Origin: Flavobacterium cheniae
GTDB lineage: Bacteria; Bacteroidota; Bacteroidia; Flavobacteriales; Flavobacteriaceae
Length of the DNA stretch: 64,000 bases
Reading direction: 5' to 3'
Assembly: GCF_004363695.1 (NCBI RefSeq)
Contig: NZ_SNZC01000002.1
Location: 496,001-560,000, forward strand
The notes beneath the pieces are model-generated. The model had not been told where the DNA came from and searched no databases. It saw only the letters and a list, made by a program, of their open reading frames with translations. This document shows, piece after piece, positions 6,916-29,135 of the stretch (within the stretch, counting starts at the first letter, position 1; each line of letters opens with the position of its first letter). A program made the translations under genes and the position numbers.

Positions 6916-9147
6916 ATGAAATATATCGTTGTATTGGCTTTTTCAAGTATAGTGCTATCACAAAGCCTAAACGCTCAAGAAATTGAATCTAATGATTCTA
7001 TAGTAGAGTTAAATCCAGTCACCATCTCACCTATTCAACAAAGTCCTGAGAGAATGCCTGAAACAAAAGGAAATGTGATTTTTTCAGGAAAGAAAAATGA
7101 AGTTATCAAATTAAACGCCATTAACGCAAATTTAACCACAAACAATGCTCGTGAAGTTTTCTCAAGAATTCCAGGAGTTACAATCTGGGAAAATGAAGGA
7201 TCAGGAATTCAAATAAACGTTGGGGTTAGAGGTTTAAGTCCTAACAGAAGTTGGGAACTAAACACGAGACAAAACGGATACGACATTTCATCTGATGTTT
7301 TTGGTTATCCAGAAGCTTATTACAATCCACCTTTGGAAGCAGTTGAGTCACTAGAATTAATTCGTGGTGGTGCTTCATTACAATTTGGACCTCAATTTGG
7401 AGGTATGTTAAATTATGTTCTTAAAAGAGAAACCAAAAAGAAATTTTCTTTTGAAACACAAAACACAGCTGGTAGCTATAACTTAATGAGTTCTTATAAT
7501 GCTATTGGAGGAAAAGTAGGTAAATTTTCATATTACGCTTACAATCATTCCAGAAGTGCTGATGGCTGGAGAGAAAACAGCGAGTATAAAGTAAGAAATT
7601 CTCATGTTTTCCTTGAATATGCATTCACAGAAAAAACAAAACTTTCTGCAGAATATACAAACATGGATTACCAAATGCAACAAGCTGGAGGTTTAACAGA
7701 TGAGCAGTTTAGTAATAATCCTAGACAATCATTAAGAAACAGAAACTGGTTTGGAACTCCATGGAACGTGTTTTCATTAAATTTTGACACAAAAATTAAT
7801 GAAAATTTAAGTTCTAACACTAAATTATTTGGCTTAATTGGCGAACGAAATAGTGTTGGTTTTACAGCAACTCCTAACAATGTAGACGCTATTAATCCAT
7901 TAACTAATGACTATGCTAACAGAAGAGTTGACAGGGATTTTTATGAAAATTTTGGTTTAGAAAACAGAAACTTGTACAAATATAAACTAGGGAAAATTGA
8001 AAACAATTTAGCTTTTGGGTTTAGATTATACAAAGCAAACACTATCAGAAAACAAGAAGGTAGAGGGACAACAGGTTCCGACTTTGATCTATCAACTGAA
8101 AATGGTTTTCCTAGAGATTTAAATTTTTATACTGAAAATGTAGCTTTATTTGCAGAAAACCAATTCAAATTAACTGAAAAATTAAGTGTAACGCCAGGTT
8201 TAAGATATGAATATATTAACTCTATCGGAAACGGAAGATTTGGGATTAGCTCAGGAAATGATGTGCCATTTGAAGAAAAAGAAATTAGTAGAAGCAAACC
8301 ATTATTTGGTTTAGGAATGGAATATAAACTAGGCTCAACAAACATTTATGCTAATATTACGCAAGCGTACAGACCAGTTCTTTTCTCAGACATTACTCCG
8401 CCTGCAGTTACTGACCAAATAGACCCTAACTTAAAAGATGCTTCAGGCTTCAATGCTGATTTAGGATACAGAGGTACATTTAAAAATTATTTAAACTTTG
8501 ACTTTAGTTTATTCTATCTTTCATACAACAACCGAATTGGAGGTGTTAGACAATTTGTAAACAACGATCCAACTCAGGGTACTTTCTTATACAGAACCAA
8601 CTTAGGCGAAACAATTAATAAAGGTATTGAAGGATTTGTAAATCTTAATGTAACTAAATTACTAGAGGTTGAAAATAAATTCGGAAATATCGACTTATTT
8701 GCAACAATTAGTTTTATTGATTCTAGATACACCGATTTTAAAATATATTCAGCATCAGGAACTGCGCCAAATGTAGTGATTACAGAAAGTAACCTTAAAG
8801 GAAATAGAGTAGAAAACGCGCCTCGTTATATTCACAATTTTGGTCTAGGATGGGAAAAAAACAACTTTTCCACTACATTACAATATAAAATGTCAGGGAA
8901 AATTTTTACTGATGCAAACAACACAATAACACCATCTGCAAATGGAGTAACGGGATTACTAGACAAATATCACGTATTAGATTTATCAGCCGAATATAGA
9001 TTCTTGAAAAATTATAATCTTAAAGGTGGAATTAACAATTTAACCGATGAAATGTATGCAACAAGAAGAGCAGGTGGATATCCAGGCCCTGGAATTTTAC
9101 CAGGAGAAGGGCGAACATTCTTTCTTTCTATTGGAGCAAAATTTTAA
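6916..9147 (+). CDS. TonB-dependent receptor, FecA (ferric dicitrate)-like
   Basis: The 743-residue outer-membrane receptor has a signal peptide ending in SLNAQ, a plug domain and a 22-strand barrel ending in LSIGAKF. The plug contains IPGVTIWENEGSG, VGVRGLSPNRSWE and IRGGASLQFGPQFGG, and the loop GGLTDEQFSNNPRQS is very like ferric-citrate receptors. No STN signalling domain precedes the plug, so it is unlikely to drive an anti-sigma cascade directly. FecA-type receptors take up Fe(III) citrate with energy from TonB. The gene has its own promoter with a candidate operator and ends at a strong hairpin. The true substrate could be another ferric chelate. Confidence 0.88.
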   Translation: MKYIVVLAFSSIVLSQSLNAQEIESNDSIVELNPVTISPIQQSPERMPETKGNVIFSGKKNEVIKLNAINANLTTNNAREVFSRIPGVTIWENEGSGIQINVGVRGLSPNRSWELNTRQNGYDISSDVFGYPEAYYNPPLEAVESLELIRGGASLQFGPQFGGMLNYVLKRETKKKFSFETQNTAGSYNLMSSYNAIGGKVGKFSYYAYNHSRSADGWRENSEYKVRNSHVFLEYAFTEKTKLSAEYTNMDYQMQQAGGLTDEQFSNNPRQSLRNRNWFGTPWNVFSLNFDTKINENLSSNTKLFGLIGERNSVGFTATPNNVDAINPLTNDYANRRVDRDFYENFGLENRNLYKYKLGKIENNLAFGFRLYKANTIRKQEGRGTTGSDFDLSTENGFPRDLNFYTENVALFAENQFKLTEKLSVTPGLRYEYINSIGNGRFGISSGNDVPFEEKEISRSKPLFGLGMEYKLGSTNIYANITQAYRPVLFSDITPPAVTDQIDPNLKDASGFNADLGYRGTFKNYLNFDFSLFYLSYNNRIGGVRQFVNNDPTQGTFLYRTNLGETINKGIEGFVNLNVTKLLEVENKFGNIDLFATISFIDSRYTDFKIYSASGTAPNVVITESNLKGNRVENAPRYIHNFGLGWEKNNFSTTLQYKMSGKIFTDANNTITPSANGVTGLLDKYHVLDLSAEYRFLKNYNLKGGINNLTDEMYATRRAGGYPGPGILPGEGRTFFLSIGAKF

Positions 9148-9174
9148 TAATTTTCAGTTAGTTTTAGTTAATAA

Positions 9175-9207
9175 AAAAGCAATCTCATAAATTTTGAGAT
9201 TGCTTTT
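9175..9207 (+). terminator. Terminator after the FecA-like receptor
   Basis: A perfect 13-bp stem (9175-9187 with 9195-9207, core AGCAATCTCA) with a 7-base loop, followed by a T-rich stretch. Confidence 0.85.
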
Positions 9208-9209
9208 CT

Positions 9210-9217
9210 TATTTTTG
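9210..9217 (+). promoter_or_regulatory. -7 element for the small FeoB-associated gene
   Basis: TATTTTTG ends 4 bases before the ATG at 9222, which predicts an essentially leaderless transcript. It directly abuts the preceding terminator hairpin. No -33 TTG at standard spacing was seen. Confidence 0.4.
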
Positions 9218-9221
9218 CACT

Positions 9222-9350
9222 ATGGATATACAACAAATCTTAGTTTACCTTTCTTTAGCTATTGCCGTAGGTTTTTTGGTAAAGAAATTCTTTTGGAAAA
9301 AACGCCCAAAGAAATCAAAACCTTGCGGTGATGATTGTGCTTGTCATTAA
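9222..9350 (+). CDS. FeoB-associated Cys-rich membrane protein (42 aa)
   Basis: A short reading frame that is easy to overlook encodes 42 residues: an N-terminal transmembrane helix (about residues 4-23, LVYLSLAIAVGFLVKKFFW), a basic stretch WKKRPKKSK, and a C-terminal Cys cluster KPCGDDCACH. That layout of one helix, a basic linker and CxxxCxC-type Cys is the hallmark of the small FeoB-associated proteins found beside Feo systems. It may help pass Fe(II) or stabilise FeoB. Its stop codon overlaps the stop of the convergent ZIP gene by 3 bases. The location near feoAB but behind two other genes is consistent with a shared iron function. Confidence 0.8.
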   Translation: MDIQQILVYLSLAIAVGFLVKKFFWKKRPKKSKPCGDDCACH

Positions 9351-10165
9351 CCCAAAGCCACGTCTAAAATCATCATGACAATAAATCCGCCGATAAAACC
9401 TAAAGTGGCAATATCGGTATTTTTATCTTGTTGGGTTTCTGGAATTACTTCTTCAACGACAACAAATATCATAGCTCCAGCAGCAAAAGCCAATGCGTAA
9501 GGTAATATTGGGGTGAAAAAAGTAACCGCAACAGCACCAATTACTCCAAAAATAGGTTCTACAATGGCTGACGATTGTCCGTACATGAAACTTTTTGTTC
9601 TGCTCATTCCCATTCTTCGTAACGGCATAGAAACGGCAATTCCTTCAGGAAAATTTTGAATTCCAATTCCAATCGCCAAAGTAACGGCGCCTGCAATTGA
9701 AGCTTCTGGAATTCCAGCTGCAACACCACCAAACAAAACACCAACCGCTAATCCTTCAGGAATATTGTGCAACGTGATGGCTAAAACCAAAAGAGTGGTT
9801 CTTTGCCATGGCGATTTTATTCCCTCTGTTTCTTTGAAATTAATGTGCATGTGTGGCAACACTTTATCTAATCCGAAAATAAATAAAGCTCCTAAAGCGA
9901 ATCCAACTGCAGCCGGAATTACTTTAATAAATCCATCTCCTTCACTCATTTCGATAGCGGGCGCTAACAAACTCCAAAAACTTGCCGCAACCATTACACC
10001 ACCTGTAAAACCAAGCATTCCGTCTAAAACTACTCGATTCATCGTCTTAAAAAAGAACACAAACGAAGCACCGAATGCTGTTAATCCCCACGTAAATGTG
10101 GTAGCTAAAAAAGCAGCCAAAATCGGGTCGATACTTTCAAAAAAATGAATAATTGAATCAAACAT
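9347..10165 (-). CDS. ZIP family divalent metal transporter
   Basis: The 272-residue polytopic membrane protein carries both ZIP metal-site motifs: HNIPEG (residues 133-138, helix IV) and QNFPEG (170-175, helix V), plus a helix-IV/V region rich in Gly and Ala. Between them and the N-terminal helices lies a His-containing loop (LPHMHINFKE), a likely cytoplasmic metal-binding loop. ZIP proteins of the ZupT/GufA type import Zn, Fe or Mn into the cytoplasm. It is encoded 2 bases after the DtxR/MntR repressor gene and so shares its transcript, which favours Mn or Fe over Zn as the physiological substrate. The assignment of metal is inference. Confidence 0.92.
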   Translation of the reverse strand: MFDSIIHFFESIDPILAAFLATTFTWGLTAFGASFVFFFKTMNRVVLDGMLGFTGGVMVAASFWSLLAPAIEMSEGDGFIKVIPAAVGFALGALFIFGLDKVLPHMHINFKETEGIKSPWQRTTLLVLAITLHNIPEGLAVGVLFGGVAAGIPEASIAGAVTLAIGIGIQNFPEGIAVSMPLRRMGMSRTKSFMYGQSSAIVEPIFGVIGAVAVTFFTPILPYALAFAAGAMIFVVVEEVIPETQQDKNTDIATLGFIGGFIVMMILDVALG

Positions 10166-10167
10166 AA

Positions 10168-10815
10168 TTATTGTACGTATAAGTTATTAGCAATTTTATT
10201 CGAAATCGTTAATCTTTTTCCATCAATTTCAACCGTTAACGTGTCATCAAAATCTTCTTTGTCGATTACTTTAACAACTGAACCTAAAGCTATTTTTTGC
10301 TTGTCTAAATATTTTAAAAAATCGGTAGACGAATCTTTCACGCCAACACAATGAAATGCAGCATTAATTTCGACTTCCGATAAAAGTTGTTTCTCAATTT
10401 TTTTAATCACACCTTTTGCATCTGGAATGGGATCACCGTGTGGATCAGCTACTGGAAAACCAAGAAAAGCATCCAATTTATTAATCAATTGTTCGGATTT
10501 AATGTGTTCTAATTCTTCTGCAATTTCGTGCACTTCATCCCAAGAAAAACCTAATTTATCTACCAAAAAAACTTCCCACAAACGGTGCTTTCTAACAATC
10601 ATTTTTGCCGAATGAAAACCTTTTTCAGTTAAGGTAACGCCTTGATATTTCTGGTAACTTACCAAATCTTTATCCGAAAGTTTTTTCATCATATCGGTAA
10701 CCGATGACGCTTTGGTATCAAGCATTCCCGCAATAGCGTTCGTATTGACACCTTTTGGAGAAACCAACGATAAATGATAAATAACTTTAATATAATTTTC
10801 TTCAGAAATGGTCAT
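10168..10815 (-). CDS. DtxR/MntR family metal-dependent transcriptional repressor
   Basis: The 215-residue protein has an N-terminal winged helix (MTISEENYIKVIYHL, then TKASSVTDMMKKL as recognition helix), a dimerisation and metal-binding domain (RKHRLWEVFLVDKLG, EVHEIAEELEHIKSE, DPHGDPIP) and a C-terminal FeoA/SH3-like domain (about residues 155-215), the three-domain layout of DtxR/IdeR. At the position of the IdeR metal ligand Cys102 it has Glu, as in MntR, while the following Glu-His pair is kept. The N-terminal MntR ligand Asp8 and Glu11 positions read Asn and Lys. It probably represses metal uptake when Mn(II) or Fe(II) is plentiful. The start is the ATG at 10815; the frame also runs up to a TTG at 10821. 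It is divergent to a TonB receptor. Confidence 0.9.
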   Translation of the reverse strand: MTISEENYIKVIYHLSLVSPKGVNTNAIAGMLDTKASSVTDMMKKLSDKDLVSYQKYQGVTLTEKGFHSAKMIVRKHRLWEVFLVDKLGFSWDEVHEIAEELEHIKSEQLINKLDAFLGFPVADPHGDPIPDAKGVIKKIEKQLLSEVEINAAFHCVGVKDSSTDFLKYLDKQKIALGSVVKVIDKEDFDDTLTVEIDGKRLTISNKIANNLYVQ

Positions 10816-10827
10816 AATCAATTCATT

Positions 10828-10882
10828 TTGACAAATATATAAAGTTTTTTTAGTTTTGTAAATGTTTTATTTTTAGTTTTGT
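10828..10882 (+). promoter_or_regulatory. Tandem promoters/direct repeats before the second TonB receptor
   Basis: The 13-mer TTTTTAGTTTTGT occurs at 10847-10859 and again at 10870-10882, 23 bases apart. Each copy contains the -7 element TAGTTTTG. The first has a -33 TTG at 10828-10830 with a 20-base spacer. The second has TTG at 10856-10858 with only 15. The segment TTTAGTTTTGTCTAAA (10872-10887) also contains the inverted pair TTTAG-N6-CTAAA, a possible DtxR/MntR-type operator over the second -7 element. Confidence 0.5.
10832..10839 (-). promoter_or_regulatory. -7 element for the dtxR-zip operon
   Basis: On the minus strand this reads TATATTTG, an exact TAnnTTTG match, about 17 bases before the ATG at 10815. 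No TTG at the -33 position was evident. It lies next to and back to back with the promoters of the TonB receptor. Confidence 0.45.
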
Positions 10883-10899
10883 CTAAATTTAATTTTATA

Positions 10900-13095
10900 A
10901 TGTCTAAAATATTTATTTATACTGCTCTATTTTTATCTGCCTTTACCTTTTCACAAAACACTATAAAAGGAAAAGTAACCGCTAATAATGAAGTTTTAGC
11001 TTATGCCAATATCTATATAAAAGAGCTAAACAAAGGAGTTGAAACAAATGAAAAAGGTTTATATGAATTCGAAAATATTCCTAACGGTTCTTATACAATT
11101 ACCGCTTCATACATTGGGTTTAAATCCGAAAAGAAAAAAATTACACTTGAAAACAATTCTGATTTAACAATCAATTTCACCTTACAAGAAGATTCAAACA
11201 CATTAGACGATGTAGTAATTTCCGGAACACTAAAACCCGTTTCAAGAATGGAAACACCCGTTCCTGTAGAAGTGTATACAACAGCCTTTTTAAAGAAAAA
11301 CCCAACCTCCAATATTTTTGAAGCATTGCAAAATGTAAATGGTGTTCGACCTCAACTAAATTGCAACATTTGCAACACTGGCGACATTCATATTAATGGA
11401 TTAGAAGGTCCGTACACCATGGTTACGATTGACGGAATGCCAATTGTAAGCGCACTTTCAACCGTTTATGGTTTATCAGGAATTCCGAATTCGTTGATTG
11501 ACAGAGTTGAAGTAGTAAAAGGTCCAGCATCAAGTTTGTACGGAAGTGAAGCCGTTGGCGGATTAATTAACATCATTACCAAAAAACCAACAACTGCTCC
11601 ATTATTTTCTGCCGATATTTTTTCGACTTCTTGGCTAGAAACCAATGTGGATTTAGGATTTAAAAGTAACATTGGTAAAAAAGTAACCACATTAGTGGGA
11701 ATCAATTATTACAATTACAACCAACCTATCGATAATAACAACGATAATTTTACCGATGTAACCTTGCAAGAACGCATTTCCATCTTCAACAAATGGAACT
11801 TTGAGCGAAAAAACAATAAAGAATTCACCATCGCTGGACGTGTTTTTTATGAAGATCGTTGGGGTGGCGAAATGCAATGGAATAAATCGTATCGCGGTGG
11901 TTCGGAAGTGTATGGTGAAAGCATTTATACCAAACGTGTGGAGCTTTTAAGTAAATATCAATTACCCACAACTGAAGATATGTATTTGTCTCTATCAGTA
12001 ACCGCTCACGATCAAAATTCGGTGTATGGAAATACGATTTACTTGGCGAATCAAAAAATTGCTTTTGGACAATATACTTGGGATAAAAAGCTAGAAAATC
12101 ACAATTTGTTATTGGGAGCTGCTTTTCGTTATCAATATTACAACGACAACACACCAGCGACAGTTTCGGCAGAACAAACAAAAATCTATAGTGTTTTTCT
12201 TCAAGATGAAATAAAATTGGCTGAAAAACATCATCTTTTATTAGGTGCTCGATACGATTACAACAACAATCACGGTAATATTTTCACCCCGAGAATTGCC
12301 TACAAATGGAATCCAACAGAAAATGATGTATTCCGAATTAATGCAGGAACTGGATTTCGAATCGTGAATTTATTTACCGAAGATCACGCTGCTTTAACAG
12401 GTTCAAGAGATGTAGTAATTACCGAAGATTTAAAACCTGAAACTTCGTACAACATCAATTTGAATTATTTGAAGAAAATCAGATTTGAAAACGGTGTTTT
12501 TTTAGGATTTGAAACTTCGGCTTGGTACACCTATTTTAACAACCAAATTATTCCAGATTACGACACAAATCCAAACCAAATTATTTATTCCAACTTAAAC
12601 GGATATGCACAAACATTAGGAATAAGTGGTAATATCGATTTGGTTACACCTTTCGGATTAAAAGCAATTGTTGGTTTTACGATTATGGAACCTAAAAATG
12701 TGCAAAACGGAGTGATTTCAACACCTGTTTTAACGGAAAAATACAGCACTAATTGGGCAATAACGTACGATATTCCAAAATGGTTTCTATCCATCGATTA
12801 CACTGGGAATTTATATGGACCAATGCGATTGCCAATTTTAGGTGATTTAGACCCAAGGCCTGAGTACTCTCCTATTTGGAGTTTGCAAAACATACAATTT
12901 ACTTATAAAAAATTTCGTAGTTTTGAACTTTATGGTGGTGTGAAAAATATTTTGAATTGGACGCCAAATAAAGGAACTCCATATTTAATAGCTGGAGCAG
13001 AAGATCCTTTTGGTGAAAATTTTGACGCAACTTATATGTATGCACCCAACCAAGGAATTAGAGGCTTTTTAGGAATTCGATATACTATTTTTTAA
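10900..13095 (+). CDS. TonB-dependent receptor with N-terminal carboxypeptidase-regulatory-like domain
   Basis: The 731-residue receptor starts at the ATG at 10900 with a signal peptide (MSKIFIYTALFLSAFTFSQ). Residues about 21-97 form the CarboxypepD_reg-like Ig domain common in Bacteroidota receptors (GKVTANNEVLAYANIYIKE, IPNGSYTITASYIGF). Then come the plug (DGMPIV, VVKGPASSLYGSEAVGGLINI) and a barrel ending in LGIRYTIF. The plug has an unusual Cys pair, LNCNICNTG (Cys155, Cys158), which could be a disulfide or metal site. Divergence from a DtxR/MntR repressor points to uptake of a Mn or Fe complex, or a cofactor needed when metals are scarce. The stop overlaps the start of a lycopene cyclase gene. 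Confidence 0.88.
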   Translation: MSKIFIYTALFLSAFTFSQNTIKGKVTANNEVLAYANIYIKELNKGVETNEKGLYEFENIPNGSYTITASYIGFKSEKKKITLENNSDLTINFTLQEDSNTLDDVVISGTLKPVSRMETPVPVEVYTTAFLKKNPTSNIFEALQNVNGVRPQLNCNICNTGDIHINGLEGPYTMVTIDGMPIVSALSTVYGLSGIPNSLIDRVEVVKGPASSLYGSEAVGGLINIITKKPTTAPLFSADIFSTSWLETNVDLGFKSNIGKKVTTLVGINYYNYNQPIDNNNDNFTDVTLQERISIFNKWNFERKNNKEFTIAGRVFYEDRWGGEMQWNKSYRGGSEVYGESIYTKRVELLSKYQLPTTEDMYLSLSVTAHDQNSVYGNTIYLANQKIAFGQYTWDKKLENHNLLLGAAFRYQYYNDNTPATVSAEQTKIYSVFLQDEIKLAEKHHLLLGARYDYNNNHGNIFTPRIAYKWNPTENDVFRINAGTGFRIVNLFTEDHAALTGSRDVVITEDLKPETSYNINLNYLKKIRFENGVFLGFETSAWYTYFNNQIIPDYDTNPNQIIYSNLNGYAQTLGISGNIDLVTPFGLKAIVGFTIMEPKNVQNGVISTPVLTEKYSTNWAITYDIPKWFLSIDYTGNLYGPMRLPILGDLDPRPEYSPIWSLQNIQFTYKKFRSFELYGGVKNILNWTPNKGTPYLIAGAEDPFGENFDATYMYAPNQGIRGFLGIRYTIF

Positions 13096-14234
13096 TGCAA
13101 CATTATCATTACATTTTCACAGGTTCAGGATTATCGACTTTGATGACCGTTTATGAAATGCTTTTATCTGGAAAATTTAAAGATAAATCCATTTTACTAA
13201 TTGATGAGAATACTAAAAAAGCAAACGATAGAACTTGGTGCCTTTGGGACGAACATAATTTATTTGATGAAATCGTCTCAAAAAAATGGAATCAAGCCAT
13301 TTTTGCGAATGAAAAATTTAATCGGGTTTTAGAACTAACGCCTTATCAATACAAGAAAATCAATGGTTTGGATTTTTATGAATTGATTTTCAAGAAGATT
13401 TCCGAACATAAAAACATCCATTTTCTAAATCAAAAAGTAGTTGATTTTACAGAATTAGGAAATCATTGCGTTGTAAAAACCAAAGAAGAAACTTTTACTT
13501 GTAACAAAATTTTTAATTCAATTTACAATCCTGAAATTGTTACTGCGCAAAATAAATTTCCTTTGATACAGCAACATTTTGTAGGTTGGTTTTTCAAAAG
13601 TAAAGAAGCTGTTTTTACTCCAAATTGTGCCACTTTCATGGATTTTTCGGTGGAACAAAAAGGCAATACGCGTTTTATGTATGTTTTACCAACATCAGAA
13701 AATGAAGCGTTGTTAGAATACACGTTGTTTTCAAAAGACTTACTTTCAAAAGAGGAATACGAATCTGAAATCCAGAAATACATTGAAAATTTAGGTATAA
13801 CGGAATACGAAATCATCGAAAAAGAACAAGGCAATATTCCGATGACGTGCTATCCTTTCTGGAAACACAACACTAAAAACATCATTAATATTGGTTCGGC
13901 TGGCGGTTGGACAAAAGCTAGCACAGGATATACTTTTAAAAACGCATCCAAAAAATCGAAAGCTTTAGTCCAATTTCTAAAATCAGAATCCGACTTCACG
14001 AAATTTCATAAGAAAGATAAATTTTGGTTCTATGATTTGTTGTTGCTGGATATTTTAAGTTCTAAAAACGAATTAGGTTCTAAAATATTTTCATCGATGT
14101 TTAGAAGTGGAAATTCAACTGTGATTTTTAAATTTTTAGATGAAGAAACTTCAATATGGGAAGATTTACAAGTCATTTGGAAATGCCCAAAAATGATGTT
14201 TGTGAAAGCGCTTTTTGGTAGAATTTTCAAATAA
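13095..14234 (+). CDS. Lycopene cyclase family protein (CrtY-type)
   Basis: The 379-residue flavoprotein resembles CrtY/CrtL lycopene beta-cyclases: an N-terminal dinucleotide-binding segment (YIFTGSGLSTLM), the family signature NDRTWCLW at about residues 42-49, and a C-terminal GSAGGWTKASTGYTF segment. CrtY closes the beta-ionone rings on lycopene to give beta-carotene, precursor of the zeaxanthin pigments of yellow flavobacteria. It starts at an ATG that overlaps the TonB receptor stop (TAATG), so it is translated by coupling. No other crt gene is in the window. An alternative role as a related FAD-dependent enzyme outside carotenoid synthesis cannot be ruled out. Confidence 0.85.
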   Translation: MQHYHYIFTGSGLSTLMTVYEMLLSGKFKDKSILLIDENTKKANDRTWCLWDEHNLFDEIVSKKWNQAIFANEKFNRVLELTPYQYKKINGLDFYELIFKKISEHKNIHFLNQKVVDFTELGNHCVVKTKEETFTCNKIFNSIYNPEIVTAQNKFPLIQQHFVGWFFKSKEAVFTPNCATFMDFSVEQKGNTRFMYVLPTSENEALLEYTLFSKDLLSKEEYESEIQKYIENLGITEYEIIEKEQGNIPMTCYPFWKHNTKNIINIGSAGGWTKASTGYTFKNASKKSKALVQFLKSESDFTKFHKKDKFWFYDLLLLDILSSKNELGSKIFSSMFRSGNSTVIFKFLDEETSIWEDLQVIWKCPKMMFVKALFGRIFK

Positions 14235-22132: not shown

Positions 22133-23152
22133 CTATTTAATTTGAAAATCTTTAATCCAATTCGCAACTACTCCACACCATTCATCTTCATCATTTAAAC
22201 ATGGAATTGCCATAAATTCCTCGCCTCCATGATGCAAAAATTGTTCGTTAGCTTCCATTGCGATTTCTTCTAAAGTTTCTAAACAATCAGCAACGAATGC
22301 TGGTGTTACTACGGCTAATTTCTTAATTCCTTGCTCTGGCATTTTGTTAATTTCAACATCTGTATAAGGTGTTAACCATTTATCACCTGCTAAACGCGAT
22401 TGAAAGGTTTGGCTGTATTTTCCTTCTGGAATTCCTAATAATTTTACAACTTGTTTTGTAGTTTCATAACATTGATGACGGTAACAAAATTCGTGCGCTG
22501 GCGAAGGTGTGTTGCAACAAGAACCATCAATTTTACAATGCGATTTAGTTACATCTGTTTTACGAATATGACGTTTTGGAATTCCGTGATACGAAAATAA
22601 TAAATGGTCGTAATCAAATCCTTCTAAATGTTTTTTGATGGAATTTGCCAAAGCCTGAATAAAATCAGGTTTGTTATAAAAAGCTGGAACATTAGTAAAT
22701 GTCATTTCTGGGAAATGCTTCTGACGTAATTCTTCAGCCAAAACTAAAATAGTAGTAGTTGAAGCCATGGCATGTTGCGGATATAAAGGCAAAAGCATCA
22801 CTTCAGTTACCCCTTGATCTTTTAACTCTTGTAATCCTTTTTGAATGGTCATGGTTCCATATCGCATTGCTAAGGCAACTGGAACATCAACCAATTGTTG
22901 CACTTTTTGATGCATTTTTTTAGAAATCACAATTAAAGGCGAACCTTCATCTGTCCAAATTCTTGCATACGCTTCCGCTGATTTTTTAGGTCTTGTTTGT
23001 AAAATAATCCCTCGAACTAACAAAGCACGTAATAAAAACGGAACATCTATTACATATTTATCCATTAAGAACTCGTCTAAATATGGCTTAACGTCTTTGG
23101 CTGTTGGACTTTCTGGCGAACCTAAGTTAACTAATAATACTCCTTTTTTCAT
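22133..23152 (-). CDS. hemH: Ferrochelatase
   Basis: The 339-residue enzyme inserts Fe(II) into protoporphyrin IX, the last step of protoheme synthesis. It starts with GVLLVNLGSPESP, has the catalytic His in LFSYHGIPKRHI, a Cys-rich segment (HCKIDGSCC, FCYRHQC) that may bind an iron-sulfur cluster as in some bacterial ferrochelatases, and a conserved FVADCLETLEEI helix. It is the first gene of a leftward operon with hemJ. A -7 element lies within about 20 bases of the start codon. Confidence 0.95.
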   Translation of the reverse strand: MKKGVLLVNLGSPESPTAKDVKPYLDEFLMDKYVIDVPFLLRALLVRGIILQTRPKKSAEAYARIWTDEGSPLIVISKKMHQKVQQLVDVPVALAMRYGTMTIQKGLQELKDQGVTEVMLLPLYPQHAMASTTTILVLAEELRQKHFPEMTFTNVPAFYNKPDFIQALANSIKKHLEGFDYDHLLFSYHGIPKRHIRKTDVTKSHCKIDGSCCNTPSPAHEFCYRHQCYETTKQVVKLLGIPEGKYSQTFQSRLAGDKWLTPYTDVEINKMPEQGIKKLAVVTPAFVADCLETLEEIAMEANEQFLHHGGEEFMAIPCLNDEDEWCGVVANWIKDFQIK

Positions 23153-23173: not shown

Positions 23174-23367
23174 CTATTTAATTATCAAAAAAAAATGACG
23201 TAAGATTAATCTTAAAGCAAAAATTACTATTTGTCGGAAAAATTATTCATTTTATCGAAATTTTGTTAAAATTATAATATTATTAACAATATATTTTTTT
23301 TTATATTAAATAATATTTAACTTAGTGACAGAATTATTGAATATTTAATAATTAAAAACCTTGGCTC

Positions 23368-24096
23368 ATGAAGAAACATTACATTAAATTACTCATTTGG
23401 TTTGTTTCAACTACAGCATTTTCTCAAGTGCAAGGTGTAGGAATCAACGAGGACACTCCTCAACAAGCCCTTCATTTAGGTTCCTCAAGTGGAACAATTC
23501 GCGTTGATGGTTTAAATGACGCAAACTCTCTCTTTAATGGAGGGGGCGCTGTTACATATCCGTTATTCGTAGACGGAGCTGGTAATCTTACCTTAGAATT
23601 CAAACCAATTTATAACAGCAATGGTTCAGATGCTCTCGATCATGCGCTTTTGCCAGGCTCGGTTGTAACACTTCCTGCCGGTGATAATGATGGTGTAATG
23701 GTAGGGGAGCTTTTTAATTTTACAATAGCTGTTAATAGAGCGTCAATTCTTGAAGTAAAATACAATGTTAGCATGGATGTGTTTTTAAATCCCGCAGAAA
23801 CAGCTATTTCTGATAGACGAGCAAGACGAGTAAATACTTTTTTTCAAGTTAATGGCGCAGGAAGAAAATATGGACAATCTGCAAAATGCTATACAGGTGG
23901 ATCAGTTGATAGTGAAACAGGTAAATTATTTAACACAAGTACTTCATACATTACTCTGCCAGCAGCGGGTTCTTATGTAATTCGTTTTTACGGGGAAGTT
24001 TCTTCAGGAATAACAAACAGTACCGCAAACACAGGATTAGCCACTTGCGTAAAATTTGCTAGAGGAAACGACAGTTTACTATTTAGATTACATTAA
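23368..24096 (+). CDS. Secreted GxGxNPQxxLHV protein, cassette 1 type A
   Basis: I do not recognise the body of this 242-residue protein. It has a signal peptide ending in TAFSQ, then a head shared with five neighbours: GVGINEDTPQQALHLG, GTIRVDGLN and YPLFVDGAGNLTL (residues about 24-73). The remaining 170 residues look all-beta, with FTIAVNRASILEVKYNVSM, a segment RRYG-like (AGRKYGQSAKCYTGG) and a late LPAAGSYVIRFYGE strand pair, ending in LLFRLH. There is no lipobox and no T9SS domain. It is closest to the gene at 25859 (type A of cassette 2), roughly half identical by eye in the head. The next gene follows after 32 bases. Confidence 0.8.
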   Translation: MKKHYIKLLIWFVSTTAFSQVQGVGINEDTPQQALHLGSSSGTIRVDGLNDANSLFNGGGAVTYPLFVDGAGNLTLEFKPIYNSNGSDALDHALLPGSVVTLPAGDNDGVMVGELFNFTIAVNRASILEVKYNVSMDVFLNPAETAISDRRARRVNTFFQVNGAGRKYGQSAKCYTGGSVDSETGKLFNTSTSYITLPAAGSYVIRFYGEVSSGITNSTANTGLATCVKFARGNDSLLFRLH

Positions 24097-24128
24097 GCCT
24101 CTTTTCTAATTCTAAAACTCAGAAAATT

Positions 24129-24911
24129 ATGAAAAATCAATACTTATATTTACTTTTTAGCTCAGCTATTGGATTTAGTCAAGTAGGAATAGGGACTTCA
24201 AACCCACAAGAAGAATTACATGTTGCGGGAAATAATTCAACTATTCGCATAGAGAGTTTAAGCAACGCAAATAACCCACTTAATGACGGAATAAAAAACG
24301 CACGTGTTTATGTTGATGCGAACGGAAACTTCACATTAACCCCACCAAACTATACAGCAGGCGGAAGTGGATATGGAAATTTACCAATAAACTTCTTAAT
24401 AGATGTACCAAATTTTATTCCTGATAATGTTGATGGTCTTCCAGCTCCTTATGATAGTTTAGGAAGAATAATAAATAGTGATTTAACTCAAGAAACCGTT
24501 GAAGGCTTTATTTTTAGTGCTACCTTTACTGTTCCTCAATCATGTACTGTTGAAGTAAAACATGGCGTTACAATAGTAATATCAGGTTCAAATATGTTAA
24601 CTCCTAGTTTAGCATATATTAACGACAGTAAAACAAGAACCATACAAACCTTTTTCTGCTTTGATATAAATAATGATGGATTAAGCCCTGCAGAGAAAGC
24701 ATTACAATATGGCCATAAAGGACAATTTTACTGTTCGGTTGCCGGAGGTTCACTAGGCTATCCATATATGAATAGTCAAGGGTACGCAACCTTACCTCCA
24801 GGCACACATTCCATTCATTTCTTTGGAATTGTACAAGATCCGCCTAACTCGTTCACAAGTGTAGGATTTGGAGGAGCAACAGACTATTTAAAACTTAGAG
24901 TATATAATTAA
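24129..24911 (+). CDS. Secreted GxGxNPQxxLHV protein, cassette 1 type B
   Basis: This 260-residue protein has a signal peptide ending in GFSQ, the shared head (VGIGTSNPQEELHVAG, STIRIESLS, VYVDANGNFTL), then a type B body of unknown fold. The body has FTVPQSCTVEVKHGVTIV, an acidic loop DINNDGLSPAE resembling a calcium-binding DxNxDG loop, and YATLPPGTHSIHFFGI near the end. The C-terminus is YLKLRVYN, almost identical to the type B protein of cassette 2. The type C gene starts 11 bases downstream, so A, B and C are one transcript. It is probably exported to the periplasm or surface; function unknown. Confidence 0.8.
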   Translation: MKNQYLYLLFSSAIGFSQVGIGTSNPQEELHVAGNNSTIRIESLSNANNPLNDGIKNARVYVDANGNFTLTPPNYTAGGSGYGNLPINFLIDVPNFIPDNVDGLPAPYDSLGRIINSDLTQETVEGFIFSATFTVPQSCTVEVKHGVTIVISGSNMLTPSLAYINDSKTRTIQTFFCFDINNDGLSPAEKALQYGHKGQFYCSVAGGSLGYPYMNSQGYATLPPGTHSIHFFGIVQDPPNSFTSVGFGGATDYLKLRVYN

Positions 24912-24922
24912 AACCTACTATT

Positions 24923-25747
24923 ATGAAAAAATACTTTACCTTATTTATTTTTGCATTTTGCGCTTCAACATTTGGACAAGTGGGTGTTAATACTAACAAT
25001 CCTCAAGAAGAACTTCATGTTGGAGGAGCAAATTCGACAATCAGAATTGATGGATTAAACACCCCTAACAACGTTAACAACCTAGGAACAGCTTCATCAT
25101 CACCTGTTTACGTTGACGCTGATGGTGATTTGATTTTAGGAACTTTAGCAGACAATGTTGAAATACTTTTTGACTCGGAAAATTATTTAGTTGATGTTCA
25201 AGATCCAACATCTTTAATTAATCAAGTAGGTAGTGGTGCAGGATTTAGTCAAGGTGGAATTCCTATTGGAGGAACCGCTATTTCTTTTACCTTAACTAAA
25301 CCAGCAATTGTTGAGGTTAACTATTCTGTAAGCTGGAATGTTGGAAAAAATGTAACTGCAACATCAAGAATTGATGATTTTAGAGCTAGAATTGTTCAAA
25401 CCGCAATGTATTTCAGACAAAATAATTATTTAGGCCCAGCGGTTATTAACGATTATTATGGCAATCCAATTAATGGAGGACCATGGTGCATTACTAGTAA
25501 TTGCATGGAACTTGGAGGTTTATTAGCTATCAATGGACAGTTTTATAATAACATCATTGGTAACCAAGGAGAATGGAGAAACTACAGAAACACAGCATCT
25601 GATTATGTAGTTTTAGGACCAGGAACCTATACTCCTATGTTTGCCGCTCAATTAGCAGTTGGAAACACGGGTGGTACAGGAGCTGTAAAATTATATTTAG
25701 GTGTTGGAATGGATGAGGTTCAAATAGTTGCTTATTATTTTAACTAA
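24923..25747 (+). CDS. Secreted GxGxNPQxxLHV protein, cassette 1 type C
   Basis: The 274-residue protein has a signal peptide ending in TFGQ and the shared head (VGVNTNNPQEELHVGG, STIRIDGLN, PVYVDADGDLILG). The type C body contains FTLTKPAIVEVNYSVSWNV, a Cys pair in WCITSNCMELGG, and a Gly-rich end YVVLGPGTYTPMFAAQL, NTGGTGAVKLYLG, finishing IVAYYFN. The end is nearly repeated in the gene at 27401. A GC-rich hairpin terminator closes cassette 1 downstream. The role is unknown; a jelly-roll-like beta-sandwich is a guess from strand pattern. Confidence 0.8.
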   Translation: MKKYFTLFIFAFCASTFGQVGVNTNNPQEELHVGGANSTIRIDGLNTPNNVNNLGTASSSPVYVDADGDLILGTLADNVEILFDSENYLVDVQDPTSLINQVGSGAGFSQGGIPIGGTAISFTLTKPAIVEVNYSVSWNVGKNVTATSRIDDFRARIVQTAMYFRQNNYLGPAVINDYYGNPINGGPWCITSNCMELGGLLAINGQFYNNIIGNQGEWRNYRNTASDYVVLGPGTYTPMFAAQLAVGNTGGTGAVKLYLGVGMDEVQIVAYYFN

Positions 25748-25770
25748 CTTTATTAATATAAATAGTTTTT

Positions 25771-25812
25771 TGTCGGCAAAAATTGTATTTAAACGATTTT
25801 TGCCGACATTTT
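25771..25812 (+). terminator. Terminator between cassette copies
   Basis: A perfect 13-bp stem TGTCGGCAAAAAT / ATTTTTGCCGACA (25771-25783 with 25796-25808), 12-base loop, then TTTTA. It is GC-rich for this locus and separates the two cassettes into distinct transcripts. Confidence 0.75.
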
Positions 25813-25858
25813 ATTGATTATCAGAAAAATAATTAGATTTTTGACCAAAAGGTAGAGC

Positions 25859-26614
25859 ATGAAATCAAAAATTATTTTTCTGATAGTTTTTTTTATTGGG
25901 GTAAACTCAAAAGCGCAAGTTAGCGGTGTCGGTATCAATAAAGACAATCCACAACAAGCACTTCATTTAGGATCACAAACAGGAACTATTCGTGTAGATG
26001 GATTAAATTCAACTAATAATACATTTAATGGTGGAGGTGTTGATAAAACATATCCTGTCTATGTTGATCATAATGGTGATTTAACATTAAAAACCGCAGC
26101 ATATGACAACAGTGACGGAGACGATGCTTTTTTAACAGCTGCAATAAATGGCACTCTAACAATTTTAGCTGCAGATGTGCCTAATGATGGTTATGCAACT
26201 TCTGAAATAACTTCATTTGTTTTTACATTAACTAGACCTACAATCGTAGAAATAAAATATTCTATAAGTCTTGAAGTGTTTCAAAACAATCTTTTTACAA
26301 TAATTAAAGACCCATATGCAAGAAATATTACAAATTTCTTTACACTAAACACACCAGTTTTATTAGATACTACTAGAAGATATGGCGCTAGTTCAAAATG
26401 TTATTTCAATAGAAATGATGCAGCAACAAACCCTGCAGCAGCTCCTGATGGAGCAACAGGTTATATTTATAATTCTGGCACAACATATATTCCTTTGCCA
26501 GCAGGACTACACACGCTTCGCTTTTATGGAACTGCTTGCTCAGGAAGCGCTAATCGACCAACATTTGTAAGATTTGCTGGAGGCCCAGACTCAATATTTA
26601 TAAAACTATATTAA
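25859..26614 (+). CDS. Secreted GxGxNPQxxLHV protein, cassette 2 type A
   Basis: This 251-residue paralogue of the 23368 protein has a signal peptide ending in NSKAQ, the head GVGINKDNPQQALHLG, GTIRVDGLN, YPVYVDHNGDLTL, and a type A body with FTLTRPTIVEIKYSISLEV, RRYGASSKCYF and LPAGLHTLRFYGTACSG, ending in SIFIKLY. The order of landmarks matches cassette 1 type A throughout, with scattered substitutions and small indels, so the duplication is old. It has its own leader after the terminator at 25771. The type B copy starts 10 bases downstream. Confidence 0.8.
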   Translation: MKSKIIFLIVFFIGVNSKAQVSGVGINKDNPQQALHLGSQTGTIRVDGLNSTNNTFNGGGVDKTYPVYVDHNGDLTLKTAAYDNSDGDDAFLTAAINGTLTILAADVPNDGYATSEITSFVFTLTRPTIVEIKYSISLEVFQNNLFTIIKDPYARNITNFFTLNTPVLLDTTRRYGASSKCYFNRNDAATNPAAAPDGATGYIYNSGTTYIPLPAGLHTLRFYGTACSGSANRPTFVRFAGGPDSIFIKLY

Positions 26615-26624
26615 TTTTTATACT

Positions 26625-27392
26625 ATGAAAAAAAATATTATATATTTCTTTTTGTCATTTAGTTGTTTCTCGTTTTCACAAATTGGTATAGAAACTAATA
26701 ATCCACAACAAGACCTTCACATAGCTGGTGCAACTTCAACAATTCGTATTGAAAGTTTAAATAGTATTAATGAACCTGCATTAAATGATGGAACAAAACT
26801 TGCACCACTTTATGTAAATGCAAACGGCGATTTTACACTTGCACCTTCTGGTTTTACAACCGGTGGAGGTGTAGGAACCAACGCGCCATTAAACTTTTTA
26901 ATTAGCGTTCCTAATTTTGTGCCTAACGGACCATTTGGTGACGGTACAGTTGTAGCTAATGACATAACCGTTACAAGTGGTGTTGCTGAAATTGTTCAAG
27001 TTCCTTTTACAAGTCCACAAGATGCTTTAATAGAAGTGCGATATGCAATGACGATAGATCTTTCAGATCAATTTTTACCAGCACCTGCAGGATCAACTTT
27101 TAATGATATTTCAGCAAGAGCAGTTCGTTGTTATTTTTATATTGATTTAAATAGTGATGGATTGGATGCGGCCGAATTATCAAAAAAATATGGTTTACAT
27201 GGTGAAGCATATACTTCATTTGCCCAAGGTTCAATTGGATATGCATTTATTCACGGTGTTGGGTATGGAAACATCCCTGCAGGGAACCATAGATTAGTGT
27301 TTTATGGGGAAACACAAGACGGAAACAACAGGGATACCTATGTAGGATTTGGTGGATCATCAGATTATTTAAAAATTAGAATCTATAATTAA
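26625..27392 (+). CDS. Secreted GxGxNPQxxLHV protein, cassette 2 type B
   Basis: The 255-residue paralogue of the 24129 protein has a signal peptide ending in FSFSQ, the head IGIETNNPQQDLHIAG, STIRIESLN, LYVNANGDFTLAP and a type B body. It keeps the acidic loop (DLNSDGLDAAE), the KYGLHGEAY segment, GYGNIPAGNHRLVFYGE, and the C-terminus YLKIRIYN. Conservation of the loop between the two B copies suggests it matters, perhaps for calcium binding. The type C copy starts 8 bases downstream. Function unknown. Confidence 0.8.
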   Translation: MKKNIIYFFLSFSCFSFSQIGIETNNPQQDLHIAGATSTIRIESLNSINEPALNDGTKLAPLYVNANGDFTLAPSGFTTGGGVGTNAPLNFLISVPNFVPNGPFGDGTVVANDITVTSGVAEIVQVPFTSPQDALIEVRYAMTIDLSDQFLPAPAGSTFNDISARAVRCYFYIDLNSDGLDAAELSKKYGLHGEAYTSFAQGSIGYAFIHGVGYGNIPAGNHRLVFYGETQDGNNRDTYVGFGGSSDYLKIRIYN

Positions 27393-27400
27393 ATTATACT

Positions 27401-28222
27401 ATGAAAAACATTTTAACATCTATATTTTTATTGTTTGCTTTTTTAGTATTTGGTCAAGTAGGAATTAAAACCACGACACCTTTAGAAGAATTACATATTG
27501 CTGGACCAACTTCAAATATTAGAATTGAAGGTCTTAATGCTACTAATAATGTTTTAAATCTTGGAAATAAAGAGAATACTCGTGTTTTTGTTGATACAGA
27601 TGGAGACTTAGTTTTAAGTACAATACCTACAAATATTGGAGTGCTATTCAATCCAGCAAACTATTTATCTGATCCATTAGATACTGGTGGTGCTGATGCA
27701 AATGTAATTAATCAAACTGGTGTTGGATCTGGATATGCTCAAGGTGGTTGGCCAAGAGTTACTGGTCCAGGAAGTTCAACTTTCACCCTTACAAGACCTG
27801 CAATTGTCGAAATAAATTACTCCCTTTCTTACGAAATTTTTAAATCTGGCATTCCAATTGATGACAACCATGCGCGTACTGCTCAATTTTTTATTTACTT
27901 ACGTAATGGCGGTCCAGCAGGAGCTATTATAACTACAGATTATAATGGAGATCCTGTGAATTTTGGTGGAAACCCAGGTGCATTAGGTTATAGTGGTAAT
28001 TTTTATACTAACGGAAGTTCTTTAGGAGCTGGCGGTGGAGAAGGCACAGGAAAAGAGTTCTACGCAACAGGACATGACTATATTGTATTAGGGCCAGGAA
28101 CTTATACACCAATGTTTTCAGGAATACTTTTTGTTGCAAATACAGGTGGTACAGGAGCTGTAAAAATGCAAATTGGGGGCGGAGACGATGAAGTTATTAT
28201 TGTAGCTCATTATTACAACTAA
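27401..28222 (+). CDS. Secreted GxGxNPQxxLHV protein, cassette 2 type C
   Basis: The 273-residue paralogue of the 24923 protein has a signal peptide ending in VFGQ, the head VGIKTTTPLEELHIAG, SNIRIEGLN, RVFVDTDGDLVLS and a type C body. It contains FTLTRPAIVEINYSLSYEI, a Gly-rich central part without the WCITSNC Cys pair of its partner, and YIVLGPGTYTPMFSGIL, NTGGTGAVKMQIG, ending IVAHYYN. It closes the array before a bidirectional terminator facing the AraC-type regulator. Export is predicted; function unknown. Confidence 0.8.
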   Translation: MKNILTSIFLLFAFLVFGQVGIKTTTPLEELHIAGPTSNIRIEGLNATNNVLNLGNKENTRVFVDTDGDLVLSTIPTNIGVLFNPANYLSDPLDTGGADANVINQTGVGSGYAQGGWPRVTGPGSSTFTLTRPAIVEINYSLSYEIFKSGIPIDDNHARTAQFFIYLRNGGPAGAIITTDYNGDPVNFGGNPGALGYSGNFYTNGSSLGAGGGEGTGKEFYATGHDYIVLGPGTYTPMFSGILFVANTGGTGAVKMQIGGGDDEVIIVAHYYN

Positions 28223-28235
28223 ACAAAATAAAAGC

Positions 28236-28265
28236 AAAAAAGAGCCAAAAGGCTCTTTTTTTTTA
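28236..28265. terminator. Bidirectional terminator between the cassette array and the araC-type gene
   Basis: An 11-bp stem AAAAAAGAGCC / GGCTCTTTTTT (28236-28246 with 28251-28261), AAAA loop, with T runs on both strands. Confidence 0.9.
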
Positions 28266-29135
28266 TATACTAGAATTTATAGACATTAAATACTTTTTTG
28301 GAGTTGTACCAAATTTTTTCTTGAAAGCGGCTATAAAATGACTTCCTGTACTATAACCAATTTTCAAACCTACTTCATTTACATTATACGAACCACTATC
28401 TAATAATTGACGTGCGTAATCCATTTTGTAATCAAATAAAAATCCATAAACGGTATCGCCATAAATTTGCTTGAAACCCATTTTTAACTTCTTAAGATTT
28501 AAACCCACTTGGTCAGCCAATTCTTGAAGTCCAGGAGGCTCTGCCATGTTATTCAAAATAATATCTTTTGCCTTTCTTATTTTTAAAACATTTTCTTCAT
28601 CAATTAGAAACGGACATTGTTCAGCATTTGGATCTTCTGAACGGTTAAAATACAAACTGAGTAATTCATATCCTTTACCCTTGTAATATAAATTTTTGAT
28701 GAATGAATTCAAATTATAATGAAAAATTTGACTCAATACAATTGACATCGAAGGACTAATATCATTTTCTTTATAATATTTCTTATCCTTGTTTTCATCA
28801 CTTAAAAAAGGGATGTTTTCTGCTTCTGAAGAAAACAAACCGTGAAATTTTTTTATAGAAACAATAATAGAAATCACCCAAGTATTGGGAGCTAATTCCA
28901 AATGAATAGGCAATTCTTTTTGTGGATTATAAAACAAAAGAGACTTTTCTTCTTTTAAATCTAAAGCATAATTTCCCTGATTAAAAATAAATTTTCCTTT
29001 TCCTTTAATTCCAAAATGAAACTGTATAAGACCCTGACTTACAGGTCTTTCAATTTTAATTGTTTCATTACTATCATTCTGAAAACGCAATAAAATAAAT
29101 TCATTTTCAATTTTTATTTCTTCTAAAGAACCCAT
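28263..29135 (-). CDS. AraC-family regulator, PchR-like
   Basis: The 290-residue protein has an N-terminal ligand-sensing half and a C-terminal AraC DNA-binding domain with two helix-turn-helix units: LQELADQVGLNLKKLKMGFK and NVNEVGLKIGYSTGSHF, followed by FKKKFGTTPKKY. The wording of this domain resembles PchR-type regulators, which sense siderophores or iron status. It is divergent to hemA, with 230 bases between, and is therefore a candidate regulator of heme genes or of the cassette array it faces. The effector is unknown. Confidence 0.88.
   Translation of the reverse strand: MGSLEEIKIENEFILLRFQNDSNETIKIERPVSQGLIQFHFGIKGKGKFIFNQGNYALDLKEEKSLLFYNPQKELPIHLELAPNTWVISIIVSIKKFHGLFSSEAENIPFLSDENKDKKYYKENDISPSMSIVLSQIFHYNLNSFIKNLYYKGKGYELLSLYFNRSEDPNAEQCPFLIDEENVLKIRKAKDIILNNMAEPPGLQELADQVGLNLKKLKMGFKQIYGDTVYGFLFDYKMDYARQLLDSGSYNVNEVGLKIGYSTGSHFIAAFKKKFGTTPKKYLMSINSSI

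Follow-up and report, generated by a model that had tools for sequence, protein, structure and literature searches.

Proteins of the TNF/C1q type are typically trimers. The bacterial fibres that come closest to the locus described here are the mosaic adhesive trimers (MATs), which, according to the published account, are typically about 1,000 aa long and, where solved, are trimers of one chain (PMC10769870). The same account describes a MAT fibre of Bdellovibrio bacteriovorus with two 14-residue capping loops (R656-H669 and F752-H765) on a trimeric beta-helix, prints the capping-loop consensus as V-G-G/N-pi-X-X-P-X-X-X-L, and names Bd2439 and Bd2734 as MATs with TNF-like tips, that of Bd2439 binding N-acetylglucosamine and bacterial lipopolysaccharide (PMC10769870). 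The locus itself lies in a stretch of 64,000 nucleotides (nt) from Flavobacterium cheniae (contig NZ_SNZC01000002.1, positions 496,001 to 560,000 of the forward strand), hereafter the window. Six forward-strand open reading frames at 23368-28222 form two successive three-gene cassettes, A1-B1-C1 and A2-B2-C2, flanked by hemH on the left and an AraC-family gene on the right (Table 1). The order of the six genes is confirmed, and their coordinates match exactly those in an initial annotation of this DNA, which had described the same-strand series A-B-C, A'-B'-C'.

That annotation had called the array a system it could not name, a verdict that can now be revised, as head and fold both resemble MAT-type fibre tips. 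Like MATs, the cassette proteins have a capping-loop stretch spaced as in the Bdellovibrio fibre structure 8ojn, a predicted C-terminal TNF-like tip, and long flavobacterial relatives. Unlike MATs, they comprise three linked paralogues in place of one chain, have no stalk, and are only 242-274 aa long, for which reason they are termed here MAT-like tips and not MATs. The lectins PLTL and BC2L-C (N-domain) share with them a bacterial origin and are the highest-ranked folds for the C1 body (Z 9.1-9.8), but in the literature consulted each is a single chain of about 130 aa (trimer or hexamer) with no capping-loop head, at 8-12% identity. With the head of complement C1q (A, B, and C chains) and the mixed TNF ligands (APRIL-BAFF), the resemblance is of another kind: three paralogous chains are predicted to form one trimer. 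The cassette differs from these in being bacterial, in lacking a collagen stalk and any sequence match, and in having a heteromeric state that is only predicted.

The cassette products are probably trimeric fibre-tip proteins, and the assembled product is probably an adhesin or lectin. The best single explanation, to which we assign a probability of about 0.52, is that A, B, and C build one heterotrimeric fibre tip. Each cassette would be a single transcription unit giving one transcript, and its three exported paralogous chains would fold into a single A:B:C heterotrimer of 1:1:1 stoichiometry. The heads, comprising a VGxxxxxPxxxLH loop and about 40 residues leading to (Y/F)VDxxGxLTL, would intertwine into a short beta-prism stub, and the bodies would assemble into a three-bladed TNF/C1q-like jelly-roll tip. 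The resulting particle would be a stalk-less, mixed-chain version of a MAT-type tip, presumably located at the cell surface and binding glycans in the grooves that separate unlike subunits. Since the window holds two diverged copies, two tips of different specificity would probably be made.

The first line of evidence is the relationship among the genes. Every cross-type pair in the window aligns (50-94 bits, 25-40% identity, some full-length and some over 126-201 residues), such that all six genes can be assigned to one paralogous family; the alignments indicate that A, B, and C are old paralogues of one another. Pairs of the same type are much closer, at 188-216 bits in BLASTP within the set and identities of 43% for A1/A2, 44-45% for B1/B2, and 45% for C1/C2, in keeping with the many substitutions that had been noted between the copies. 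In a tree of 128 proteins, the A proteins (35 rows) are split off by a branch with support 98, the B proteins (36 rows) by one with support 80, and the C proteins by a clade with support 99 that takes in 35 of the 38 rows so labelled; the other three (L045, L054, and L055) are low-scoring and group with related single-gene proteins that are not A, B, or C, termed S type. The four type labels change only five times on this tree, compared to a shuffled mean of 69.3, with none of 200 shuffles this low. The recurrence of three body types by position, proposed from the window alone, is thus borne out by same-type identity and tree alike. The sequence landmarks listed with that proposal were mostly found, save that C2 has SNIRIEGL and not STIR, B2 reads LYVNANGDFTL, and KKYG occurs in B2 too. 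When the genes were compared with those of four related loci, the ratio of nonsynonymous to synonymous substitution rates (dN/dS) was 0.03-0.20 in 22 of 24 comparisons, rough values because dS was saturated in two of the 24 and above 1 in many others; the genes look to be under selection. Distances between cassettes, taken for each of the three types in turn, correlate at 0.90-0.94 over 43 cassettes (L157 and L158, whose A genes are damaged or cut, were left aside), which linkage explains in part. When the cassettes were clustered at fixed k, the adjusted Rand index varied with k between 0.2 and 0.87, and no conclusion was rested on it.

The second line of evidence is the integrity of the unit. 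B1 was searched in 299 Flavobacteriaceae genomes, and profiles of C and A in 299 genomes drawn with the same genome labels. B1 matches at E up to 1e-10 occur in 21 genomes; the C profile exceeds 200 bits in nine (G000, G042, G060, G087, G156, G193, G194, G195, and G210), and the A profile does so in exactly the same nine. B1 scores at least 184 bits in eight of these; G042, the exception, carries a short B with 261 vs 136 bits by profile and only 74 bits by single-sequence search. All three types are hence present in 9/299 family genomes and none is typed in the other 290, matches of 91-135 bits being either cross-matches between the three types or further members of the family, S type for instance. 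Across all searches, 47 cassettes were collected at a typing threshold of 180 bits, after removal of 13 loci whose contigs were taken, from their equal length, as duplicates of others in the set (L037, L038, L040, L042, L043, L151, L154, L156, L161, L162, L163, L166, and L168); they include close relatives (e.g., L057 and L058) and are not independent. Forty-five are complete and all read A-B-C, while the remaining two (L063 and L075) are cut by contig ends. A scattering of the three types as singles, which the initial annotation had named as a sign against a joint unit, is not what is seen, and its view that the order has been kept since an old duplication stands. Within the genus Flavobacterium, 18 of 398 genomes carry a cassette, F. 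cheniae counted, and one further genome (G598) has a weak single only. In a scan of GTDB species (at least 67 loci), cassettes among the matches listed were confined to Flavobacteriaceae or unclassified Bacteroidota, with hosts including Flavobacterium, Aureitalea, Aureisphaera, Aequorivita, and an uncultured Kordia. Among 326 genomes of the order, no A-B-C was found outside the family, and the C profile returned G000 and G042 as well as a weak single (59.6 bits) from a different family. The A-B-C cassette is real and old, kept together, and under selection.

This integrity bears on an alternative that we consider unlikely, though it is the rival most deserving of attention, namely that one operon encodes three separate homotrimers (A3, B3, and C3), each with its own glycan, giving three specificities per cell. 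Precedent speaks for it, as bacterial TNF-like tips and lectins in the literature consulted are each built from one protein (trimers, or a hexamer in PLTL), and the S-type singles, if trimers, must be homomeric. A mere set of specificities, however, should lose or reshuffle its members, and none of the nine family genomes does so; none of the 47 cassettes lacks a member or alters the order, the two contig-end cuts aside, and second copies come as whole triplets.

The fold of the bodies was approached through structure prediction. An AlphaFold2 model of C1 from 11 sequences has a mean predicted local distance difference test (pLDDT) score of 72, with a well-predicted body and residues 10-45 below 50. 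Structural comparison with VIA-align placed the body closest to the TNF-like lectin PLTL (Z 9.8, 132 aligned residues, root-mean-square deviation (rmsd) 3.0), followed by the BC2L-C N-domain (9.2), RANKL (9.1), Pgp3 (9.1), TNF (8.6), TRAIL (8.5), and BxpB (8.2). By their titles and established knowledge, 38 of the 50 matches listed are TNF/C1q-type chains, and Foldseek alone recovered the same folds with weak E-values. The C body is therefore predicted to be a TNF/C1q-like jelly roll, as the initial annotation had guessed, and the same is likely for A and B, which are homologous to C and adopt this fold in the joint model discussed below.

Analysis of the heads points to the MAT fibres. The motif [VI]G-x5-P-x3-[LVIM] is present in 137 of the 139 cassette proteins collected. 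Searched against PDB sequences, the C or B profile matches the Bdellovibrio fibre 8ojn at E 0.008-0.009, the C profile aligning to two of its stretches, 22-45 and 119-139, which have the same motif spacing as the cassette heads. Because length and letters fit, these stretches appear to be the two published capping loops; other PDB-sequence matches (E 0.02-0.9) were taken as chance. The module is further tied to longer fibres by five flavobacterial proteins of 442-543 aa that carry an N-terminal capping loop and a fibre-like middle and end in the same head and body as a C-terminal tip (L081 6326-7678, L083 6344-7690, L084 89-1720, L085 6311-7639, and L087 821-2452).

How the three bodies might pack was modelled on a read-through chain. 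In locus L068 (F. suncheonense), the three genes share a reading frame, with gaps of 12 and 6 nt, and reading the two stops as glycine yields a single chain of 760 residues for AlphaFold2. The model has a predicted template modelling score (pTM) of 0.69 and a pLDDT of 65.8, with 253/760 residues below 50; the three bodies lie largely in the range 75-93 and drop to 51-70 in a few stretches. Since the pTM reaches this value despite a third of the chain being disordered, the bodies seem to be confidently placed relative to each other and thus to dock in the model, as three undocked bodies would be expected to give a far lower score. In comparison with the PDB, only 3 of 982 aligned chains reach Z 8 or more, and all are TNF/C1q-type trimers, so that the packing suggested as a test in the initial annotation is at least predicted. 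A single-chain APRIL-BAFF-BAFF construct (4zch; Z 14.8, 238 aligned, rmsd 3.7) covers model residues 63-486, comprising the A and B bodies, while a single-chain C1q (5hzf; Z 11.9, 243 aligned, rmsd 4.3) and the Cbln1 trimer (5kca; Z 8.6, 248 aligned, rmsd 5.1) both cover 320-760, comprising the B and C bodies. Two bodies aligned across a three-body target would be consistent with a closed trimer whose chain order is opposite to that of the constructs. Another kind of hetero-oligomer, whether a stack, a hexamer, or successive homotrimeric A, B, and C discs of a short fibre, is improbable to our minds. PLTL is described as a hexamer of two TNF-like trimers, and a fixed gene order would suit fixed stacking; yet gene order alone does not fix geometry, and judging from the aligned ranges the read-through chain looks like a closed trimer of three blades and not a stack.

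Several observations weigh against the A:B:C heterotrimer or the resemblances that lead to it. Only 3 of the 19 alignment rows behind the read-through model are complete A-B-C read-throughs (nine more are A-B and seven B-C), each match to a single-chain trimer spans two of the three bodies, and in Foldseek this model reaches only low TM-scores, the top ranks going to long chains of unrelated proteins. AlphaFold2 may have learned a pseudo-trimeric arrangement that it would impose on any three TNF-like paralogues, and such docking cannot without controls separate a heterotrimer from homotrimers, a point in favour of the latter. With respect to the fold, the C1 scores of Z 8-10 are only moderately above the 7-8 background at which the tool finds no clear match, and birnavirus capsid domains match C1 too, with Z up to 8.9. 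The 8ojn profile match is weak (E 0.008-0.009) and covers some 25 residues, and the printed MAT consensus is one position shorter between G and P than either the 8ojn letters or the cassette proteins, such that the heads agree with the former letters and not with the consensus. The head region, the candidate for an intertwined beta-prism or beta-helix stalk, is mostly below pLDDT 50 in both models. Finally, family members exist without A, B, and C, both as S-type singles in Flavobacteriaceae and as a low-scoring paralogue array in G138. This array (L045 6772-9057 and 18442-19215) consists of three plus one paralogues with no clear A, B, or C type by profile, and is perhaps an independent multiplication.

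A broader formulation, for which the odds are about even, regards the A:B:C heterotrimer as a bacterial counterpart of C1q: an obligate tip, derived by triplication of a homotrimeric MAT-type tip, kept indivisible across Flavobacteriaceae genera and copied whole for new specificities. If true, one particle would hold three different binding grooves, as in C1q, and the locus would illustrate a transition from homotrimer to obligate heterotrimer in which some genomes (L062 and L064) have kept single-gene relatives next to the triplet. What is new relative to the known systems would be a fibre tip of three mixed chains, those of bacteria in the literature consulted being made of copies of one protein; no bacterial heterotrimeric TNF/C1q-like fibre appeared among the literature matches listed (the best ten at most for each search), as far as titles and abstract openings go.

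The genomic surroundings hint at how the triplet arose. At the DUF3467/prfC site (edges identified by family annotation in examples and by short motifs in the remainder), eight genomes have DUF3467, A-B-C, and prfC beside rpoC, one of them cut before prfC, while eight other genomes have a protein of about 380 aa and one S-type single instead. The S-type singles are head-and-body proteins like A, B, and C, but belong to none of the three types and usually occur as one gene beside this partner, which has a Big_9 domain in all four copies scanned. At this site in L046-L053 and L062-L064, the secreted-looking partner precedes one or two S-type proteins, and in L062 and L064 it heads a tandem series of two S genes followed by A-B-C. 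This adjacency suggests that A-B-C arose from S-type singles by tandem duplication, and the present singles may resemble the ancestor. A 50-row alignment mixing singles with read-through chains, in which the singles seemingly fell on the A block (by conserved columns, not row by row), was dropped.

The unit is found at several genomic sites, including these and others. The arrangement of the window, hemH, A-B-C (A'-B'-C'), and AraC-hemA-hemC, recurs in 21 other genomes, with L158 cut on one side and L039 having two extra genes between hemH and A. L057, L058, and L060 have one extra gene between AraC and hemA, encoding 767-828 aa (11360-13846, 11359-13662, and 8870-11329, respectively); the L057 protein has a CHU_C type IX signal domain. 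Of the 17 other Flavobacterium genomes with a cassette, 16 carry it in the hemH-AraC slot; in the seventeenth, a contig end cuts off the hemH side. In 16 cassette-free Flavobacterium genomes, the hemH-AraC gap is 27-504 nt in 14 and about 1.15 kb in one (G310), where an unrelated DUF4932 gene fills the slot and no cassette remnant was found; in the sixteenth, the two genes are on separate contigs. As the AraC gene is present in all 16, it is not evidently cassette-specific. The lineage of the second window cassette occurs alone in F. urocaniciphilum (L074) and also, in a different genus, at a site unrelated to this one (L073), a grouping that recurs in the tree for each of the three types. L073 5460-7840 belongs to G060, which has its own different A-B-C as well (L036), and represents either whole-unit transfer or old paralogy.

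A usually empty Flavobacterium slot might be taken as the mark of a mobile-element remnant, and viral proteins often contain TNF/C1q-like domains (at E up to 0.001, C1 is matched by 137 viral models), as would suit a domesticated phage tail fibre. Either origin is very improbable in our estimation: B1, the only query used there, has no match in 50,697 phage records or viral contigs, A2, likewise the sole query, has none in 72,556 plasmids, and the edges identified at the two main sites are housekeeping genes, other flanks being partly annotated. PHROGs returned only weak matches (best E 0.0034) to function-less families, covering signal and head only.

Gene spacing is compatible with cotranscription of each triplet. 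Gaps within the window cassettes are 8-32 nt and the B-C gap elsewhere is -1 to 22 nt, while the C1-A2 interval is 111 nt and holds the first of two terminator-like hairpins, one after each cassette (Table 1); the scan is a consensus match, with five sites found in the region vs 2.7 expected. By eye, a hairpin with a T run also follows the last C in L056, L057, L059, L060, L074, L079, and L068, and is not clear in L069 and L076. The Bacteroidota promoter pattern TANNTTTG has 86 sites in the window vs 112 expected, none on the forward strand before A1 or A2. A TTGTCGGNAAAAAT-like box, allowing up to one mismatch, has four window matches vs 0.46 expected, three of them at the cassettes: upstream of A1 (23231-23244) and in both arms of the hairpin after C1 (25770-25809). 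It is possibly a regulator site. Related ATCGA boxes were seen by eye upstream of A in several relatives.

Table 1. Cassette genes, hairpins, and flanking genes in the window
Feature	Positions	Strand	Remarks
hemH (ferrochelatase)	22133..23152	-	left slot edge; TIGR00109
A1, 242 aa, type A	23368..24096	+	export signal by eye, MAT-like capping-loop head, TNF/C1q-like body (predicted)
B1, 260 aa, type B	24129..24911	+	plan as A1; EF-hand-like DxNxDGLxxxE loop (FCFDINNDGLSPAE)
C1, 274 aa, type C	24923..25747	+	plan as A1; residues 77-274 modelled as TNF/C1q-like jelly roll
Terminator-like hairpin, 16-bp stem	25771..25808	+	between first and second A-B-C; consensus scan
A2, 251 aa, type A, second cassette	25859..26614	+	
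B2, 255 aa, type B, second cassette	26625..27392	+	FYIDLNSDGLDAAE loop
C2, 273 aa, type C, second cassette	27401..28222	+	
Two-way terminator-like hairpin	28236..28261	.	between C2 and convergent AraC gene; consensus scan
AraC-family regulator	28263..29135	-	right slot edge

The signal peptides of all six proteins were assigned by eye. None of the six has a Pfam or NCBIfam family at cut-off. At E up to 1, neither a type IX secretion system (T9SS) sorting domain (both collections) nor a TNF or C1q family (Pfam) was matched, and Pfam showed no collagen family either. A lipobox-like string occurs in 2/139 cassette proteins and in none from the window. T9SS cargo and lipoprotein identities were accordingly discarded; the initial annotation, too, had seen neither T9SS domains nor lipoboxes. 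A search of the F. cheniae genome with B1 returns only the six cassette genes. Of the 47 cassettes, 42 have the EF-hand-like DxNxDGxxxxE loop in B and three more a near-variant, and the two short B's lack it; that the loop binds calcium is a guess. Median isoelectric points are 5.3 for the less acidic A vs 4.6 for B and 4.5 for C. Among the long tip-bearing proteins, L083, L084, and L087 share downstream genes of about 120-130, 130, 660, and 180 aa, most of which are also present in L085. Tandem head-bearing, secreted-looking proteins with weak similarity to the family occur in L091 and L104 (genes of about 210 aa) and in L100 of Dysgonomonas (about 245-285 aa).

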